The notes beneath the pieces were generated by a model. It worked only from the letters and a program-made list of their open reading frames with translations, did not search any database and was not told the origin of the DNA. Shown piece after piece: positions 22,545-32,605 of a DNA stretch of 33,388 bases. Made by a program: the position numbers and the translations under genes. The DNA is from a bacterium (lineage in GTDB: Bacteria > Planctomycetota > Phycisphaerae > UBA1845): assembly GCA_024231775.1 (NCBI GenBank), contig JAAEQG010000136.1, forward strand, positions 1 to 33,388, in the 5' to 3' direction. The first letter of the stretch is position 1, and each line of letters starts with the position of its first letter.

Positions 22545-24800
22545 CTACGCCTGGGTGTCGTCGTTGCCAGGCTCTGGATCCGGATCGGTGGCGATCTCCT
22601 TCGCCGGCTCAGTGGACAGCACGCGCTCGACTCCACCCTCCTCTTCTTCCTGGTATTCGTAGAACGTGCGTAGCTGCTCGCGGAAGTACCCCCCGCGGCG
22701 GACTTGGGCACAGTTCAAGATGCCGCCGAACACGGACGCGTTGACTCGGTCGAGCAGGGACAGCGCCCGCTGGGCTTGGCCTCGGGAGTTGTCTTTGGCG
22801 CGGCACACCAGGATCACGCCTTCGACCCGCGTAGCCAGCACCAGCGCATCACTGGCCAGCAGTACGGGGGGCGTGTCGATGATTACCTGATCGTAGCGGC
22901 TTTGGGCTTGCTCGAGGAACTCGCCGCCCAGGGCGCCGTTCAGCAGTTCAGCGGGGTTCGGCGGCATGGGTCCGCTGCCGACCACATCCAGATTGGCTAT
23001 CTCCGTCTTGCAGATCAGCTCGTCCAGCTTGGCCCCACCGATTAGGAAATTGCTCAAACCGGCCTGGTTGATACTGGAGAACACGCGATGGAGGGCAGGG
23101 CGCCGGAGGTTGGCGTCCACCAGCAGTACCCGGCGTCCGGTGAGGGCGATGGATGTGGCTATGTTGCACGAGATTACGGTTTTGCCGTCCTCGGGGCGCG
23201 GACTGGTGACCAGCAGGGTGCGCTGCCGATCCGACGGGGCACTGAATTGCAGGTTCGTCCGGATGGTTCGAAAAGCCTCAGCCACCATCGAATGGGGTGC
23301 CACACGTACTGCTGTTTCCACGACCTCGATGTCGACTTCTTCGTCGTCCATGTCGGGCACGGTGCCCAGGAGCGGGAGGCTTAGATGGCGCACGATGTCC
23401 TGGGGTGTACGCACGGAAGTGTCCAGCAACTCCAGGCCCACGGCGACGGCAATCGCCAACCCTAACGCGAATATCACTGCAACCGGAAGCAGCAAGAACC
23501 GGGGGCTGCTTCGCTGGAGCGGATCAACCGCCGGCTGAGCTACGTCGACCCGTACCGCCGTCTGATCGCGAACGACTCGCTCCACCTCCTGGACCACGTC
23601 GTCCAGTCGGGCTTTGGTGTCCTTGAGCATGGCCAGCTCGTCCTTGAGCGTCTCATGCTCAGCCAGTTTTCTCTCCAGATCGGCCTGCTTTGCCCGGGCT
23701 TCGGTGAGCCGCTCCCGGGCGACCAGCAGCGAGTGCTGCGAAGTGAGAAACGCTGATTCGACCTGCTCGGCTTTGAACTTGAGGATCTCCTGCAGCCGCA
23801 AGCCGCGCACCTCCGCCGCCTGTCGGCGGACCATCTCCATTCGAATCCGCATGGCTCGCACGGTCCGGTGTTCTGATCCCAGGTCGTGTAGGGCCATATC
23901 CAGTTCTTGCTCGAGATAGCTTACCTGGTTGTCCAGGGAGATCACCCGCGGGTCCGCTTCCACGGCCTGGGCGTCCTCCACGGTGACGCCCGGACCGGTC
24001 GGGTCCTGATAGATGTTGACGAACGACTCCAGCTCCAGGGTCTGTAGCTCCAGCCGGGCGACTTCTTTCTGACGGTCGAGGATCTCCATGACCGATGGTC
24101 CGTACTGCGCCCCTTGGTGAATCGCCCCGGGTTCCAGGGTGGATACGAAGTTCTGTACCTGGCGAAGTTTCTGGGTGATCTGTTTCTGGAGAGTGGCCTG
24201 TTCAGATTTATATGAAGCAAGCTGGGCCCGGTAGGCGTCCGCCCCGCGGCTGCGCACTTTCTCGATGTAGCTGGCGACGACTTGATTGACGATCGCTGCG
24301 GGGTCCCCGAGGGAACGACAACCCATGCTGATGGCGAAGTAGTTGGTGTCCCGCACCGGGGAACTGCCCAGGTCTTCCTCCAGCTCCAGCCGCAGTTTGC
24401 GCTTGTCCGCCTGCCCGTACCAGTCGGTCTTGCGGACTTCCGGGGCCTCCAGGGCGGCGTCGAGCACTCTCGGACTGGACGCGAACATGGCATGGCTGGC
24501 GACGAAGCGCTCGTGGCGGTCCTCGGTCATCTGCACGTCGAATTCGCCCGGGCGCATGGGTAGGTCGCTAATGCACTCGATGAAAGCCGTGGCCCTGTAC
24601 GTGGGAAACTTGAAGTAGGCCAGGAAGAACAACCCAACTCCCATGGTGCTGAAAAGCAACCACAGGGCGATAATCATCACCAGGCGATGCTTGAGGATCG
24701 CGGCGATGTCAGCCGCCGACAGACTCGGGCCCTCGCCACCCTCTCCACGGGGCGGGGCCAGAGCGATTTGTTCCTGAATGGTGGTTGGTACGGTGGTCAT
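22545..24800 (-). CDS. Wzc-like chain-length determinant / tyrosine autokinase
   Basis: A 751-residue fusion typical of bacterial tyrosine kinases of polysaccharide export. A Wzz-like segment has membrane helices at about 38-61 and 435-459 and long coiled coils (195-230, 285-410) in the periplasmic part. The C-terminal ATPase has Walker A in SPRPEDGKTV (Lys540), Walker A' in LLVDANLRRP (Asp562) and Walker B in VIIDTPPVL. GSGPMPPNPAELL is the family block. The usual GEGKS/T is here EDGKT, an accepted variant. Three tyrosines near the end (705, 714, 716) are possible autophosphorylation sites, fewer than in Wzc. Its start overlaps the exosortase stop by 3 bases, so the two are coupled. Confidence 0.92.
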   Translation of the reverse strand: MTTVPTTIQEQIALAPPRGEGGEGPSLSAADIAAILKHRLVMIIALWLLFSTMGVGLFFLAYFKFPTYRATAFIECISDLPMRPGEFDVQMTEDRHERFVASHAMFASSPRVLDAALEAPEVRKTDWYGQADKRKLRLELEEDLGSSPVRDTNYFAISMGCRSLGDPAAIVNQVVASYIEKVRSRGADAYRAQLASYKSEQATLQKQITQKLRQVQNFVSTLEPGAIHQGAQYGPSVMEILDRQKEVARLELQTLELESFVNIYQDPTGPGVTVEDAQAVEADPRVISLDNQVSYLEQELDMALHDLGSEHRTVRAMRIRMEMVRRQAAEVRGLRLQEILKFKAEQVESAFLTSQHSLLVARERLTEARAKQADLERKLAEHETLKDELAMLKDTKARLDDVVQEVERVVRDQTAVRVDVAQPAVDPLQRSSPRFLLLPVAVIFALGLAIAVAVGLELLDTSVRTPQDIVRHLSLPLLGTVPDMDDEEVDIEVVETAVRVAPHSMVAEAFRTIRTNLQFSAPSDRQRTLLVTSPRPEDGKTVISCNIATSIALTGRRVLLVDANLRRPALHRVFSSINQAGLSNFLIGGAKLDELICKTEIANLDVVGSGPMPPNPAELLNGALGGEFLEQAQSRYDQVIIDTPPVLLASDALVLATRVEGVILVCRAKDNSRGQAQRALSLLDRVNASVFGGILNCAQVRRGGYFREQLRTFYEYQEEEEGGVERVLSTEPAKEIATDPDPEPGNDDTQA

Positions 24801-25747
24801 GTGGACTCCGTCGCCTTCGAGACTTCTCCCGCCTCCGAGGTGGGTTCGTCCATGAACAAGTGTTTAAGCACATACCCGGTGAGCGCGAACAGGCCCAGGG
24901 CGATCGGCAGCATGGCCATCCCCAACAGTTCGTGCGTGGTTCCCTGGGCCAGATCTCGACGGTCGTATACGTGGAGGAATCCCGTGGTCGTCACCCGGAC
25001 GATATTGCAGAACACGGCGATGGGGACGCAGGCGATCACCATGCAGATCCGCTGCCAAGCGGGACGCGTGCCCACGTATGCCATGGCGACGCCAAGGGTG
25101 ACGAAGGCCATCATCAGGCGCATTCCGGCGCAGGCTTCTTCCACGTTGAGCGATCCCGGACGCCCTCTGTAGAAGTAGTCGACGACCACCCCCTGCACCT
25201 CGACTTCGATGTCCGGGATCAGCATCAGCACCAGCGAAGACAACTGCGTGGTCAGCATTCGCAGGGGCATGGTCAGTTGCACGTACTTGTCTTCGGGGAT
25301 CGGGAGGGCAAAGAAGAGGAATAGAATGGGTAGCCAGACGATCCGCAGCATGGGCCATCCGGTCAGGAACAGCACCACACCCAGGATGGCCCCCAGCAGC
25401 GAGAAGGCTTCCAGGTAAGCGAACGGCTGGAAGACGAAGAAGTAGATGTTCGCCGCCAGGGATAGCACGAACAGCACCAAGCCAGGGTAGCAAGTCGTTG
25501 CCGGGGTACGGGCAATATCCGCCCGGCGGGTGTAGAGGAAGTACAGACTGAACAGCGGCACCAGCCAACCGTGCGACCAGTTCGCATCCGAGTTCCACCG
25601 CCCGGCGACCGCGGTGAGGCGCGGCCAGTAGATCAGCAGCAACAGCGTACCGATCACGCCGGCTTGTACCCACGCCACGATGCGGGATCGGTCCACCGAA
25701 GCTGTGCCGCCGGGCAGGTTCGACATTTCGATGCTGTTTGGGGTCAT
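24797..25747 (-). CDS. Exosortase (archaeosortase/exosortase family)
   Basis: A 316-residue polytopic membrane protein with about eight hydrophobic segments. All three residues of the exosortase active site are present: Cys206 in EEACAGMR, Arg251 in CNIVRV, and His272 in GTTHELLGM. Exosortases cut PEP-CTERM-like C-terminal signals and are thought to attach the proteins to surface glycan. The subfamily is not resolved; the type common in planctomycetes is a guess. It lies 8 bases after the export lipoprotein and overlaps the Wzc-like gene, an arrangement seen in exopolysaccharide/exosortase loci. No C-terminal EpsI-like domain is fused to it. Confidence 0.92.
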   Translation of the reverse strand: MTPNSIEMSNLPGGTASVDRSRIVAWVQAGVIGTLLLLIYWPRLTAVAGRWNSDANWSHGWLVPLFSLYFLYTRRADIARTPATTCYPGLVLFVLSLAANIYFFVFQPFAYLEAFSLLGAILGVVLFLTGWPMLRIVWLPILFLFFALPIPEDKYVQLTMPLRMLTTQLSSLVLMLIPDIEVEVQGVVVDYFYRGRPGSLNVEEACAGMRLMMAFVTLGVAMAYVGTRPAWQRICMVIACVPIAVFCNIVRVTTTGFLHVYDRRDLAQGTTHELLGMAMLPIALGLFALTGYVLKHLFMDEPTSEAGEVSKATEST

Positions 25748-25755
25748 CGGGACAG

Positions 25756-27603
25756 CTACTGGAACAGATTCGGGAACCTCGACTGTTGGTTTGCCGGGTT
25801 GACCTTGGAACTGTATCGGTCGATATCCGCGAAATTGCGGTCGTAAACGAAGCCGAACCCGTAACTCATCCGGAACGCGCTACGCAGCACGGCCAGGAAC
25901 GGAGACACGGGATGGGTCCCCACCAGGACCAGATCATCCTTCTTGAGGAAGAAGTCCTGTTCCTTGCCGGCGAAGATCGCATCCAAGTCCACCTGGATCA
26001 TCTGCTCGCGGTCACCCAGACGGCGATAAACCGTGCAATGCTGCGGCCAAGCCAGCGGAGAAAGATTGCCCGCGGCGGCCACCGCTGTTTTGAGCGTGAT
26101 CGCCCGACCGGTCAGTGAATAGGCACCCACCCGGAACACGTGACCCATGATGTAGTATTCGCCGAACTCGCCCGAGGCGAGGCGGATGGCGTCTCCGGGC
26201 CGAACGACGATGTTGTGTCGACCGTCTCCGTCGCGGAGGGCTCCGGCGGAGATCTTGATCACCCGCTGCTCGCTTACGCCCGCGACCTGAGCCCAGTCAA
26301 TCGATGGCTGGGTCGCCTGGGGCGGATCCACGGAGGCAACCGGAGCTGACGCTACGGCTGGGGCGGAGTCGGGGGCTTCGGTCTCGATCCATTTTCCGTT
26401 GTAGTAGATCCACCGGGGCTGCGTCGGACCTGCCGACACGGGCTCACCCGCGTCCGGGGCGGCGGGCGCACTGGACGACGGCTCGCCGGTCATGGTCTCG
26501 ATCAGCTCTTGCCTAGCCGGGGGCGGGATGACCTCTGTCGGCGTCGGTGAGGAAGCACTGTCAGGCGGTGACGCTGAGTCGGACTTCGCCGAGGGGTCCA
26601 CCTCGACCCATGCCCCGTTCTTGTAGATCCACTGGGGTACCGCTTGGCTGGCCGGTGCCTGGACCTCCGGTTGCGGGGCTGCGGGCGCGGAGGATGTTTC
26701 TCCGAGCATGACGTCGATCAGCTCTTGCTGACCGGCTTGAGTGCTGGGTGTGCTCGGCGGGGTGTCCGTCGGGTCCGCGGGGGATCCGTGACGTGCGCCG
26801 GAGCCATATCCGTCAGATAGGGTCACCGCCTCCGCGCCCCGCCGCTTCGCGGTGGTTCCGCGGGAGCGCCAGTTGGTGGCCATGACCGGATCGGGCAGTG
26901 CCTGATTCCGCACCACGTAGATTTCTGTGACCGAATCCACGAGTCCGCCGGCGATGTTGATCGCGTCGAGGAGGCGGAGGTCATACTGCCCCAGTGGATA
27001 GAGGTTGGGGCCGGCGATGGTGCCATATACAGTATAGCTGAGCTTCCGCCGTATGGCGGGTTCGACGATCAGCTCCGGATTGACCAGAATCTCCCTGCTG
27101 ACCAACTGGTCGGCCAGCTCCGCTTCGATTTCGGGAAGGGTGAGGCCGCCCACCTCCAACCGTCCGAGCACGGGGATGGAGATGCTTCCGGTCTCGTCCA
27201 GGACCACCTGAAGTGCCGTTTCGGTCCCGCGCTGGAGGAGCTCGTACACGCGGATGTTCAGGGCATCCCCGATCTGGTACTCATACTCCTCGACGATAGG
27301 AACCAGATCCTCCGGTTGCGGATCGCTTACCCCCATCACCCCGGTGGGCGCGTCCTGGAGGGAAAGCGAACTGCGGATGTCCAGAGTGCCCTCCCGGCCA
27401 ATCAATCCGTACGAACCCAGCTCCGATGGATTAAACAGGCCGTTGAAGAAGCTGCTCATCAACCCGTTGCTGTTGCAGCCCATCAGGCTAGTCCAAGCGA
27501 CTGCCGCGCACGCCACCCTCAGCCGGAGCAGCCTCCGGTGGCGGGAAAGGGCCGGGTCCGAGGAAGACCCCATTGCGAGGTGGTGCGAAGCGGTTTCGTC
27601 CAT
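25756..27603 (-). CDS. Wza-like polysaccharide export lipoprotein with duplicated insert
   Basis: A 615-residue outer-membrane export protein. A cytoplasmic leader and hydrophobic segment end in lipobox LMGC (Cys43). The polysaccharide-export domain is at about 107-185 (YEYQIGDALNIRVYE, GSISIPVLGRLEVGGLT). A first SLBB domain begins at 189 (YTVYGTIAGPNLYPLG) and a second runs at 483-564 (EYYIMGHVFRVGAY). A Pro/Ala/Ser-rich insert of about 200 residues (234-440) splits the first SLBB from its PGD end. It contains two copies of a 72-residue unit (QELI-x-x-M-x-GE, then WIY-x-NG-x-W-x-E). The ATG at 27603 follows AAGG. It is the first gene of the minus-strand export set. Confidence 0.88.
   Translation of the reverse strand: MDETASHHLAMGSSSDPALSRHRRLLRLRVACAAVAWTSLMGCNSNGLMSSFFNGLFNPSELGSYGLIGREGTLDIRSSLSLQDAPTGVMGVSDPQPEDLVPIVEEYEYQIGDALNIRVYELLQRGTETALQVVLDETGSISIPVLGRLEVGGLTLPEIEAELADQLVSREILVNPELIVEPAIRRKLSYTVYGTIAGPNLYPLGQYDLRLLDAINIAGGLVDSVTEIYVVRNQALPDPVMATNWRSRGTTAKRRGAEAVTLSDGYGSGARHGSPADPTDTPPSTPSTQAGQQELIDVMLGETSSAPAAPQPEVQAPASQAVPQWIYKNGAWVEVDPSAKSDSASPPDSASSPTPTEVIPPPARQELIETMTGEPSSSAPAAPDAGEPVSAGPTQPRWIYYNGKWIETEAPDSAPAVASAPVASVDPPQATQPSIDWAQVAGVSEQRVIKISAGALRDGDGRHNIVVRPGDAIRLASGEFGEYYIMGHVFRVGAYSLTGRAITLKTAVAAAGNLSPLAWPQHCTVYRRLGDREQMIQVDLDAIFAGKEQDFFLKKDDLVLVGTHPVSPFLAVLRSAFRMSYGFGFVYDRNFADIDRYSSKVNPANQQSRFPNLFQ
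26377..26727 (-). repeat. Tandem protein-level duplication inside the export lipoprotein
   Basis: Copy A encodes residues 293-336 (QELIDVMLGE ... WIYKNGAWVEVD) and copy B residues 365-409 (QELIETMTGE ... WIYYNGKWIETE), with a period of about 72 residues joined by low-complexity Pro/Ala/Ser linkers. The motif ends are conserved while the linker has drifted, so the duplication is old and probably under selection. Confidence 0.75.
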
Positions 27604-28001: not shown

Positions 28002-28163
28002 ATGAAGAAAGCACGCGTGCTGCGCCAAGCGGCTCTGCTCGCCAGTGGCATAGGTCTGCTGTTTCAAGTGGGGTGTACCACGGCGACGTTTCTGGACTTC
28101 CTGAACACGGTGCTCCTGGGGGTGACTGCGGCGGGCTCGGTGGCCATACTGCAGAACATCTAG
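28002..28163 (+). CDS. Small probable lipoprotein, 53 residues
   Basis: A short gene with an excellent ribosome-binding site (GGAGG, 9 bases before the ATG). The peptide has a basic start (MKKARVLRQ), a hydrophobic core and VGC at 23-25, resembling a lipobox, although Gln at -3 is atypical. The rest is a hydrophobic helix (FLDFLNTVLLGVTAAGSVAIL). It could be a lipoprotein or a two-helix membrane peptide. I recognise no family. It lies between the export operon and the HEAT-repeat gene. A longer upstream frame exists from 27768 but shows no coding character. Confidence 0.6.
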   Translation: MKKARVLRQAALLASGIGLLFQVGCTTATFLDFLNTVLLGVTAAGSVAILQNI

Positions 28164-28510: not shown

Positions 28511-30793
28511 ATGTCCGCCCCCGCTGGTCTACGCTGGTTGTTTCCGTCCCTACGGCTGTTTGTGCTGAGCACCGCGATGCTGGTGAGCGGGTTTCTTGGT
28601 GTTCCGGGAGGGTATGCGCAGTCTGGCGTGGAGGACGCTGTCGAGGCAGCGGATGCGCCGGCTGACGACAGCGAAAAGGGCGTGCAGGCTCTGTTTGCCG
28701 ATTTCCTGCACTATGCCCGGATGGGCCGGTTCGAGGAAGCCCGGGCGTACGCCACCCGGTTGCTGGACCATCCGGATCTGGATCCGGTCGAGTTGCTGGA
28801 GTGGGCGGATCGCGACCGCGGTAGCCTGGATACCCTAATCACCGTAATCAGCCACTCGTCTGTTGGGCGTGAAGCGCAGCGCGTGCTGGATGTGCTTCGA
28901 GAAGGCGAGCACCTGAAACGCCAGGATCCGCAACGGATCGGCGCGAACATCGATAAGCTGGGCGGCGCTCCGCAGGCGGAGTATCACGCCATTCAAGCCC
29001 TGAGAGATTCCGGCGAGTATGCGGTTCCCTGGATGGTGCAGGTTCTGGTTGACCGAAGTCGGGAGGATCTTGCTCCGCGGATCATTCGCACCCTGCCGCA
29101 GATCGGTCAGCCGGCGGTGAATCCGCTGGTGGCTGCGCTGGAGACGGCGGATCTTGATCTTCAGCAGACCCTGGTCCGGGCATTGGGCGAGATCGGGTAC
29201 CCCCATGCGGTGCCTTACCTCAAGAAGCTGTTTACGGAGGGCGACCTCCCGGATGGCGGGCGGGCGGCGGTTGACGAGGCTTTGGCACGGATTGCTCGGC
29301 AGTGCGGGCGGAGCTTCCCTGGCAGCGCGGCGGAAGACTTCATCCGACTCGCCGAGCAGTACTACAACGAAGAAGGGGTGCTTCGTGCCGACCCCCGACT
29401 CCCCTCGGCGAATCTGTGGTATTGGCGCGATGGTTTTGTCGATTCCGTCGTCGTTCCTCGCGACATCCACGGGCCGATCATGGCCATGCGCTGCGCCGAG
29501 TACGCTCTCAGGCTGGAGCCTGCTCGCGTCGAGTCGATTCCGCTTTGGCTAGCGGCCAATATCCGGCGCGAAGCCTATCTGGGCATGAATGTCGAAAGCG
29601 GTGAACCGGTGGTGAGCGAGCTGGACCCCAGTCGCCCGGATGGTTTTCCGCGGGCTCTGTATTTCTCGCGCGCGGCGGGGGCGCAGCACTGCCTGGACGT
29701 TCTGGACCGGGCGAACCGCGACCAGGATACGCTCGTAGCCCTGGGGGCAATTGCGGCGCTGCGCACGGTAGCGGGGCCGAGTGCGCTGGTCGCGTACCGG
29801 GGTGCGACCCAGCCGCTGGTGCAAGCTCTGACCTTTCCGGATGCATCGGTGCGGATCAAGGCGGCGTTGGCCTTGGCTGAGGCTCGTCCGCGGGCGTCTT
29901 TTTCCGGCGCGGACTGGGTGATCCCCGTGCTGACCGAAGCACTGGGACACGTGGGTGAGCAGTTCTACATCGTGGTCGATCCCGATTCGGCCAACCTGAA
30001 TCGCATAGTGGAGCTTCTTCGTCAACAGGGCGCCGAGGTCCTGGGAGAATCCAACTTCTACAAGGCGGTAGAACAGGTGCGCAAGGATCGCCGGCTGGTA
30101 GCGGGCGTATTCCTCTCCGCGGCGATGGAGAATCCCGGGGTCTGGCCCGCGGTTGCCGAGCTCCGGCGCGAGTTCCGTTACCGTCTGACTCCGGTAGTCC
30201 TGCTGCGGGATTCCGTTAACTATGAGACCGCTCGGACTCTGGCCGAGAAGGATCCTCGGGTAGGCCACGTGGCAGCGGACGCCGAGAGTGAGGCTCTGGC
30301 CGCTACCATGCGCGAGGTGATGGCTCGGACGGGTCGCGTACCGCCGCCGGACGATCAGTCGCAGCGTTTGGCCTTGGCGGCTACGGATGCACTGCTCGGT
30401 CTGGCCCACGATCCGGCGACCGTGCTGAGTGCGGCGGTGTCCCAGCCGGCGCTGATTGCGGTGCTGGAGGATGCTGACGACGATGAGTTGCGTCGGCGCA
30501 CCACCGCCGTGCTGGCCAGATTGGACGGACCGACCGCACAGCGTGCCCTAGTGGCTACGGCGCTGAGTGACACCGAACACGAGACTTTGCGCGTGGCGTC
30601 TTTCGACGCCCTGGCGGAGTCCGCACGGATCCACGGTAACCTGTTGAGTGACACTCTGCTGACACGCCTCATCGAGGTTGCGAGCGATGAGCCCGACCTT
30701 GCCCTGCGCACCGCGGCCAGCCAGGCGTTGGGGGCATTGAACCTTACGGACAACAAGGCCGGCGAGGTCATCCGCAAGTACCACCAGGGATAG
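28511..30793 (+). CDS. Exported HEAT-repeat protein with an embedded receiver-like domain
   Basis: A 760-residue protein with an N-terminal signal peptide (about 1-36, ending GGYAQSG). Helical HEAT-like repeats occur at about 155-265 (such as VNPLVAALETADLDLQQTLV, then RALGEIG), 400-480 and 615-755 (ALIAVLEDADDDELRRR). Between them residues 483-608 read like a CheY-type alpha/beta domain: FYIVVDPDSANLNRIVELL, then GVFLSAAME where the phospho-Asp would be (Ser536), then LTPVVLLRDS and a final helix. If this reading is right, the domain is a non-phosphorylatable pseudo-receiver outside the cytoplasm. Such repeat proteins are usually scaffolds. GGAG precedes the ATG at 28511. The DUF2723 gene follows 52 bases later. 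Confidence 0.8.
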   Translation: MSAPAGLRWLFPSLRLFVLSTAMLVSGFLGVPGGYAQSGVEDAVEAADAPADDSEKGVQALFADFLHYARMGRFEEARAYATRLLDHPDLDPVELLEWADRDRGSLDTLITVISHSSVGREAQRVLDVLREGEHLKRQDPQRIGANIDKLGGAPQAEYHAIQALRDSGEYAVPWMVQVLVDRSREDLAPRIIRTLPQIGQPAVNPLVAALETADLDLQQTLVRALGEIGYPHAVPYLKKLFTEGDLPDGGRAAVDEALARIARQCGRSFPGSAAEDFIRLAEQYYNEEGVLRADPRLPSANLWYWRDGFVDSVVVPRDIHGPIMAMRCAEYALRLEPARVESIPLWLAANIRREAYLGMNVESGEPVVSELDPSRPDGFPRALYFSRAAGAQHCLDVLDRANRDQDTLVALGAIAALRTVAGPSALVAYRGATQPLVQALTFPDASVRIKAALALAEARPRASFSGADWVIPVLTEALGHVGEQFYIVVDPDSANLNRIVELLRQQGAEVLGESNFYKAVEQVRKDRRLVAGVFLSAAMENPGVWPAVAELRREFRYRLTPVVLLRDSVNYETARTLAEKDPRVGHVAADAESEALAATMREVMARTGRVPPPDDQSQRLALAATDALLGLAHDPATVLSAAVSQPALIAVLEDADDDELRRRTTAVLARLDGPTAQRALVATALSDTEHETLRVASFDALAESARIHGNLLSDTLLTRLIEVASDEPDLALRTAASQALGALNLTDNKAGEVIRKYHQG

Positions 30794-30845: not shown

Positions 30846-32396
30846 GTGTCTCCAGTCGCCGCTAGCCCGGCTGAACACCCACCGTCATGCCCGCCGCGGA
30901 AGGCACGGCGTGCCTATCTGCTCGTCCTGTTCTTGGCCTTGGGACTATACCTCGCCAGCATGTCGCCGGGGGTGCTCTGGCAAGACAGCGGGATGGCCCA
31001 GGTCCGCACGTTTCGTGGCGATCTATCGGGGCATGGTGGGTTGGCCCTAAGCCACCCGCTGTACTACGTGCTCACCATCGGGTTTCAGTTTCTTCCTTTT
31101 GCCGAGTCTGCTTTCAAGACGACCTTGGTGTCCGTCGTGCTGGGCGCGCTGACCGTCGCGAATGTCTTTCTGCTGGTTCACTGGGCTACCGGACGAGCCG
31201 CCGGTGCGGTCACCGGGGCAGTTTCGCTCATGGTGGCACATACGTTCTGGCAGCACGCCGCCGTGGCTGAAGTCTATATGGTGAGCACGGTACTGCTCAC
31301 CGCGGAGTTGCTCAGTCTCATGCAGTACCGTCGGACCGGGCGGGCCCGCTGGCTGGTGCTGCTGTTCGGGCTGAACGGTCTGGGGATCAGCAACCACATG
31401 CTGGCGCTGCTGAGCCTGGCGTGTTACGGGGTCATGTTGCTGTGGCTGCTGTGGACCCGTAGGGTCCGCTGGGCGATGGTCGGGCTGATGGTGGTAGCCT
31501 GGTTGGCGGGCACGAGTATCTACCTGGCGCTGATCGTTCAGGAGCTCCGCTCGGGGGCCAGTGTGGGGGAGACGGTGCAGTCTGCCCTGTTTGGGGTCAA
31601 CTACTCCGGTAGCGTGCTTAATGTGTTTCCGTCTCCTATCCAGGTGATGCGTTCGGTGCTGTTCCTGGGATTGAACTTCCCTACGCCCGGGCTGTTGCTG
31701 GTGATCCCGGGTATCGCGGCGTTGCGTGGTGCGGATGACAAGCTCTGGCGTACCGTGCTGGTCGGGCTGGGGGTGGTGCATTTTGTATGGGCGGTGCGCT
31801 ACGACGTGGCGGACCAGTACACGTTCTTCATACCTGCGTGGGTGATGCTGGCGATGGTGCTTGGGTTGGGGGCGGACCGCGTGTTGCGGACCCGCGGGCG
31901 CGGTTGGCGGTGGGGGGCGGTGGCTTTGGCGGCGATGCCCGCGCTGGTTTACTGGCCCCTGCCAGGGGTTGCGCGGGCCTGCCATCTCGATTTGGGCGTC
32001 GCTCGCGAGCTGCCCCATAGAGACAGTTACACTTATTTCTTGCGTCCGTGGAAGACGGGTGACCGGGGCGCGGAGCGCTTCGCTCGTGAGCTGGCCAGGA
32101 TTCTTCCACGGAATGCGGTCCTTTTTGCGGACAGTGCTTCGGTTCACCCGATCTACTACCTGCGGTTGACGGAGGGCTGGCGGGATGATGTGCGGGTGTA
32201 TCCCGCCGTCGAACCGCTGAAGAACGCGCGGGAAGTGTTTGGTGAGCAGGCTGTGCGGCGGGAGGTCGAGGCGGGGCTGGTGTTCGTGACCAGTCCGGGA
32301 CGTGATCCGAAGTGGTCTCGCCAGGGATACGTCTTCGTGCCGGAGGGCGTAGCGTACCGTCTTTCGCGGAAGACTGCTGGTGAGGGCGGGCCGTAG
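30846..32396 (+). CDS. DUF2723-family polytopic membrane protein (GT-C glycosyltransferase-like)
   Basis: A 516-residue membrane protein with about ten hydrophobic segments and a soluble C-terminal region (about 390-516). The start of the membrane domain has LASMSPGVLWQDSGMAQVRTF followed by LSHPLYYVL, matching the DUF2723 pattern with its DSG loop (Asp47-Ser48) and H-P. Relatives are GT-C-fold, O-mannosyltransferase-like enzymes that transfer sugars from lipid-linked donors outside the membrane; the donor and acceptor here are unknown. GGGAGGGG stands about 4 bases before the GTG at 30846. It follows the HEAT-repeat gene and is probably cotranscribed with it. Confidence 0.82.
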   Translation: MSPVAASPAEHPPSCPPRKARRAYLLVLFLALGLYLASMSPGVLWQDSGMAQVRTFRGDLSGHGGLALSHPLYYVLTIGFQFLPFAESAFKTTLVSVVLGALTVANVFLLVHWATGRAAGAVTGAVSLMVAHTFWQHAAVAEVYMVSTVLLTAELLSLMQYRRTGRARWLVLLFGLNGLGISNHMLALLSLACYGVMLLWLLWTRRVRWAMVGLMVVAWLAGTSIYLALIVQELRSGASVGETVQSALFGVNYSGSVLNVFPSPIQVMRSVLFLGLNFPTPGLLLVIPGIAALRGADDKLWRTVLVGLGVVHFVWAVRYDVADQYTFFIPAWVMLAMVLGLGADRVLRTRGRGWRWGAVALAAMPALVYWPLPGVARACHLDLGVARELPHRDSYTYFLRPWKTGDRGAERFARELARILPRNAVLFADSASVHPIYYLRLTEGWRDDVRVYPAVEPLKNAREVFGEQAVRREVEAGLVFVTSPGRDPKWSRQGYVFVPEGVAYRLSRKTAGEGGP

Positions 32397-32405
32397 CGTT
32401 GTTCT

Positions 32406-32433
32406 CGGACGAACCTCGGCGCCAATTCGTCCG
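32406..32433 (+). terminator. Perfect hairpin just after the DUF2723 gene
   Basis: CGGACGAA pairs with TTCGTCCG (8 bp) around a 12-base loop, 9 bases after the stop codon. No T-run follows. It is a plausible attenuator or 3'-end stem between the DUF2723 gene and the downstream gene, which starts 172 bases later. Confidence 0.4.
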
Positions 32434-32605
32434 CACGGTTTGCCTGAAAACGCATCCCGGTTTAGAACCTCGCACCGCGGTACGAAGAAGAATGTGGGGG
32501 TGGGGCGGGGCGAATCGAGACGGCTCATGTCGAGTTGCGGAGGTGGCGCCGGTGCGCCGCTCCCGAACTCAATCGGGTGCGGATGCGTAGGGGGCTAGGA
32601 GGTCC

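Follow-up and report, generated by a model that had tools for sequence, protein, structure and literature searches.

The window analysed here, a stretch of 33,388 nucleotides from a bacterium of the class Phycisphaerae, encodes a Wza-like OPX lipoprotein whose first SLBB domain is interrupted by some 200 residues of unusual composition. A sequence-only reading had placed this interruption at 26290-26900, had described it as two copies of a 72-residue unit with conserved aromatic ends, and had suggested a carbohydrate- or protein-binding module. The question raised by the locus is what such a sequence is, how widely it is kept, and what it might do in a polysaccharide exporter.

The OPX lipoprotein and its split SLBB domain

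The gene and its domains are as follows.

25756..27603, minus strand: OPX (Wza-like) lipoprotein gene, 615 aa (Pfam Poly_export, SLBB and SLBB_2; phmmer match to Escherichia coli Wza)
27475..27534, minus strand: signal sequence and lipobox (SLMGC, Cys43), read off the translation
27064..27291, minus strand: Poly_export domain, aa 105-180 (Pfam PF02563)
26905..27036, minus strand: first half of SLBB1, aa 190-233 (Pfam PF10531)
26164..26265, minus strand: second half of SLBB1, from aa 447 (alignment with relatives)
25921..26157, minus strand: SLBB2, aa 483-561 (Pfam PF22461, SLBB_2)

The domain content is that of an OPX protein: the Poly_export match scores 47.3 bits against a cut-off of 28, and PF10531 and PF22461, each above its cut-off, supply the one or more SLBB domains expected of the family. 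The closest solved relative found with phmmer is E. coli Wza (PDB 2j58, E 4.7e-10; the Wza-Wzc complex is described in PMC12881504), which shares the signal sequence and lipobox, the Poly_export domain and two SLBB domains. An alignment running through the split SLBB domain shows Wza to lack such an insert, whereas the window protein lacks a detected Wza_C domain. Because neither Wza_C nor GfcC is among its Pfam matches, we assign the protein to class 3 by domain content, following the definition in PMC9603273; a low-confidence model suggests that residues 567-581 may form a cryptic C-terminal helix.

Two equivalog families of OPX proteins from exosortase and EPS systems, EpsE (TIGR03028) and pepcterm_export (TIGR03027), share these domains in part and, like the window protein, neighbour exosortase and co-polymerase genes. 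The window protein falls well below their curated cut-offs, scoring 78.3 against 262.65 for TIGR03028 and 35.4 against 180 for TIGR03027, and the models, at 239 and 169 positions respectively, are too short to contain the insert.

Upstream of the OPX gene, a divergent small ORF at 28002-28163 on the plus strand (MKKARVLRQAALLASGIGLLFQVGCTTATFLDFLNTVLLGVTAAGSVAILQNI) looks like a 53-residue lipoprotein. Elsewhere in the window, a 760-residue HEAT-repeat protein is encoded at 28511-30793 (plus strand), and a 493-residue ORF without a Pfam match at 31047-32528 (minus strand) overlaps a 516-residue ORF on the opposite strand.

Layout of the insert

Pro, Ala, Ser and Glu are abundant in the insert, which carries the following elements.

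26266..26907, minus strand: insert splitting SLBB1, aa 233-446, 214 residues
26797..26820, minus strand: motif A, LSDGYGSG, weakly conserved (in 16 of 110 inserts; 2.3 in shuffled sequences)
26698..26730, minus strand: motif B copy 1, QQELIDVMLGE
26599..26634, minus strand: hairpin C copy 1, QWIYKNGAWVEV, the extra and more diverged copy
26482..26514, minus strand: motif B copy 2, RQELIETMTGE
26380..26415, minus strand: hairpin C copy 2, RWIYYNGKWIET, at the ancestral position and the most conserved copy
26278..26307, minus strand: motif D, PSIDWAQVAG, directly before the SLBB strand resumes

These boundaries agree with the coordinates given in the sequence-only reading, and its statement that the insert splits the SLBB domain is correct, since the two halves are nearly contiguous in paralogous proteins, with a gap of only 6-30 residues. 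The internal repeat is also as described. Unit 1 begins at aa 292 (QQELIDVMLGE...WIYKNGAWVEV) and unit 2 at aa 364 (RQELIETMTGE...WIYYNGKWIET), so that the QELI parts lie 72 residues apart and the WIY parts 73. Local alignment of one unit with the other scores 127, against a mean of 39 (sd 7, maximum 71) in 2000 shuffles, giving z = 12.4. Since the units are only 62% identical in DNA, the duplication is an old one.

A search of the window's genome with a 79-aa unit recovered only the protein's own two copies, the other matches having E values of 0.25 or worse. Likewise, comparison of the 72-aa unit with Pfam and of the insert with PDB chains gave only chance-level matches, and no known folded domain was recognised. 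phmmer pairs motif D with the 'DW' of E. coli Wza; we set this homology aside, as by its place within the SLBB domain the Wza DW precedes the other strand.

The insert is a class-wide feature of one OPX clade

Searches for OPX genes, which were then extracted, covered 100 near relatives together with 198 genomes from the class and 199 from the phylum. The gap between the conserved parts of the proteins is bimodal, spanning 81-298 residues in one group (n=122) and 7-62 residues in the other (n=28). The insert-bearing proteins form a single clade with a FastTree support of 0.96, every complete member of which has the insert, and the clade is spread over the class (recorded as Phycisphaerales or Phycisphaerae). 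Short paralogs coexist with them in the same genomes, two of them in the window's own, and the OPX proteins of other planctomycetes (L130-L144) have no insert. The comparison shows that the insert arose once, in one OPX clade, and that it has been kept class-wide by every complete member. The longest insert, the 298 residues of L070 (G016), has short tandem repeats of its own (GHASGKDHASGKDHAAGKE; GQVDGLGQVGEQGHVDGLGQV) and a single hairpin.

In the open-licence literature searched we found no description of the insert, and no papers on the OPX or exosortase loci of Phycisphaerae.

A short hairpin is the conserved part of the insert

The constant element of the insert is a short motif of the WIFLNGKWIEV type, [WYF][IV][FYW]x[ND]Gx[WF][IV][EPR]. 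This strict pattern occurs in 75 of 112 inserts, against a mean of 0.8 and a maximum of 4 in shuffled sequences, and the count is a lower bound because the regular expression misses variants such as WVFTADRKWVE. A profile of the hairpin gives 120 matches at 8 bits or above and none on reversed ORFs. The element makes up 5% of the insert length and yet holds 201 of the 465 aromatic residues in the inserts. Its turn is exchanged among relatives (NG, DG, ND, DPxTG, DPxxG); in families f4 and f8 NG is replaced by DPxTG or DPxxG with both strands, or at least the first, retained, as would be expected of a β-hairpin. In f4 (LIFDPQTGEVI) it is the tryptophan of the second strand that is replaced while strand one is kept. 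Around this element the signals are weaker: a QELI-like segment resembling motif B precedes the hairpin in 61 of 110 inserts (5.9 in shuffles), a DWxxhA segment resembling motif D follows it in 62 of 110 (5.0 in shuffles), and the linkers between them are of low complexity, drifting in sequence and variable in length. That the hairpin has been hidden from domain databases, class-wide as it is, can be put down to its being a few residues inside disordered sequence.

Substitution rates between the window's species and two congeners, for which dS is high to saturated throughout, follow the same division. Hairpin 2 has a dN of 0-0.03 and motif D of 0-0.11, values to be set beside 0.10-0.14 for the SLBB core and 0.5-1.3 for the linkers. 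The hairpin is thus under strong purifying selection while the linkers drift. Hairpin 1 is less constrained, with a dN of 0.15-0.38, and it is also farther from the SLBB strand, for which reasons we take the second copy to occupy the ancestral place. The sequence-only reading would have been undone by a module absent from all relatives and without selection on its conserved ends; the hairpin is found throughout the class, and its aromatic ends are under purifying selection. On the C-terminal side, the tether from the hairpin to the resuming SLBB strand spans 40-46 residues (interquartile range), whereas the N-terminal one spans 92-123; the contrast is weak on a log scale (p = 0.03), and we give it little weight because the sequences are not independent.

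Two hairpins are present in all three species of the window's genus (g1) and once elsewhere, in L098 (G223), which belongs to a distant family and has an independent duplication (EWVFRDGKWIPM ... EWVFQDGKWVPI); its congener L097 has one copy. In no other OPX protein examined was more than one copy detected. The doubling noted in the sequence-only reading is real in the window's genus but, because nearly all relatives are single-copy, it is not an essential feature. Expansion of copy number, considered as the main explanation of the insert, was rejected on this distribution, and the duplicated hairpin is best described as a local copy-number change in a class-wide feature. Two profile matches outside OPX proteins (L107 and L052) come from the same gene of one genome (G015), an ORF that we take to be spurious because it is antisense to the OPX gene; apart from it, a profile search of the neighbouring genes at all loci read detected no hairpins.

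Predicted structure of the insert

AlphaFold2 was run with alignments of 4 sequences from near relatives, many homologues from the wider genome searches being left out. Over its full length the protein was modelled poorly (mean pLDDT 35), and this model was kept out of fold searches. In it, both copies are nevertheless drawn as two-stranded hairpins, with strands at aa 324-328/331-335 and 397-401/404-408. An 85-residue piece around copy 2, predicted from the 4 sequences, gives the same hairpin at a pLDDT of about 73-80, with little structure elsewhere except for a short helix in motif D.

Both the prediction and the conservation are limited to the hairpin, in low-confidence surroundings, and we have rejected the notion of a folded 72-residue domain. 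The repeat is real, but its conserved part is a hairpin of about 11 residues accompanied by the weaker QELI and DW motifs, the rest being drifting linker. What stands of the binding module, proposed as unusual for Wza, is a short class-wide element whose aromatic ends are under purifying selection.

Association with exosortase genes

Downstream of the OPX gene, and only a few bases from it, lies an exosortase gene; a co-polymerase gene comes next.

24797..25747, minus strand: exosortase, the next gene (Pfam PF09721, E 4.8e-57; TIGR02602 over its cut-off; synteny)
22545..24800, minus strand: Wzc/GumC-like co-polymerase with a tyrosine autokinase domain, overlapping the exosortase gene (TIGR01007 over its cut-off)

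The exosortase scores 139.6 against the TIGR02602 cut-off of 105.55, and the window's genome (G000) has 58 matches to TIGR02595, as compared with 18-90 PEP-CTERM matches in five sampled genomes with the system. The locus thereby shares an adjoining exosortase gene and multiple PEP-CTERM proteins with the PEP-CTERM/exosortase (EpsH) system of PMC1569441. The terms Wza, EpsE, 'polysaccharide export' and 'hairpin' do not occur in that 2006 paper, nor does it describe the OPX insert. Elsewhere in the window's genome (G000:C491:7469-7849), on a contig without an OPX match, there is a second, short exosortase-like match.

An exosortase gene lies directly after the OPX gene in 66 of 67 insert-bearing loci, which reduce to 62 distinct genomes when repeats are discounted. 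Further genomes beyond this set have the same order, and within the class the clade is followed by an exosortase in every genome with readable downstream DNA. The lone exception (L233, G429:C180) is an OPX C-terminal fragment with a hairpin, on a contig fragment of a genome placed outside the class, and may represent contamination or transfer. Downstream of the six short OPX loci for which sufficient sequence was available there is no exosortase, nor is there one after the short paralogs of insert-bearing genomes, and no OPX gene was found within 1.5 kb of the exosortases of other planctomycetes in the loci read. Moreover, three genomes of one family of the same order (f2: G051, G058 and G062), which are 80-94% complete, have no match to the insert-bearing OPX, to exosortase or to PEP-CTERM, but retain a short OPX. 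From the adjacency to exosortase and the joint loss in this family we conclude that its gene associations place the clade in the PEP-CTERM/exosortase system, and the exosortase link raised by the sequence-only reading is supported at the level of genes. The link can be assigned to the clade but not to the insert itself, because insert and pairing arose once, together. In several families a co-polymerase gene was not detected beside the pair.

A possible role for the insert

A conserved hairpin in an exosortase-linked exporter is supported by the comparisons above; that it docks, and where, we infer. The reading that we favour, with about an even chance of being right, is that the insert is a tethered docking hairpin in the OPX ring of the PEP-CTERM/exosortase exopolysaccharide system of Phycisphaerae. 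The insert would form a flexible arm in the periplasm, as a built-in part of the SLBB1 ring, and the hairpin, with one aromatic face formed by W/Y-x-F/Y/W and a cross-strand W/F, would be its docking element, folding alone and binding at a fixed site that a tether of about 40-50 residues from the SLBB strand can reach. This site would most likely belong to one of the proteins of that export machine, either the next OPX subunit in the ring or the co-polymerase with its periplasmic part, the exosortase being a less likely candidate. If the ring is octameric like that of Wza, eight arms could make a multivalent contact, and a second hairpin per arm, as in the window's genus, would bring the docking elements to sixteen.

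The aromatic face might instead make contact with the polysaccharide during its export, inside the ring lumen or close to it, guiding or gating the polymer, in keeping with the carbohydrate binding proposed earlier. The aromatic hairpins of choline-binding (CW_binding) repeats bind their ligand and are likewise short with a G turn; the unit, however, has no Pfam match to them at E values up to 10, and members of the window's clade usually have a single copy in place of a repeat array. SLBB domains have themselves been proposed to contact the polymer (PMC9603273). Such a glycan-contacting arm nevertheless seems to us unlikely: the insert matches no carbohydrate-binding family in Pfam or the PDB, the hairpin is present in nearly every member of the class though the exported glycans presumably differ, and family f4 dispenses with the second-strand tryptophan while keeping strand one. 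A purely structural role, with the hairpin contributing strands to an SLBB or Poly_export domain, either of its own subunit or of the next one, and doing no more than stabilising the ring, would be one particular form of the docking model. It would suit the more constant C-side tether of 40-46 residues and the position of motif D beside the SLBB strand, but the linkers are long, variable and of low complexity, and paralogs without the insert manage without a hairpin; we consider this role unlikely.

The adjacency in every checkable genome of the class, the joint loss of OPX, exosortase and PEP-CTERM, and the families with no co-polymerase gene detected beside the pair would all fit an arm that recruits the exosortase or PEP-CTERM substrates, coupling protein sorting at the inner membrane to polysaccharide export. 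The exosortase, however, resides in the inner membrane, which the N-side linker could reach but for which the C-side tether is short, and the single joint origin of insert and pairing means that the link may be to the OPX protein as a whole; we judge this reading rather improbable. A passive spacer, in which a surface loop tolerates disordered sequence and the repeat is a chance duplication, would accord with the freely diverging linkers and their variable lengths. It is very hard to reconcile with the class-wide conservation, the purifying selection acting on the hairpin and a profile specificity of 120 to 0, and we regard it as most improbable.

Whatever its partner, a conserved short element confined to the exosortase-paired OPX clade and never found in the paralogs provides a specific and easily mutated handle, and the natural single-copy and double-copy variants allow comparison. 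Should the arms bind the exosortase or PEP-CTERM substrates, sorting and export would be one physically coupled machine in Phycisphaerae. The question on which the hairpin, as a handle on the exporter, bears is why exosortase genes travel with polysaccharide-export genes.
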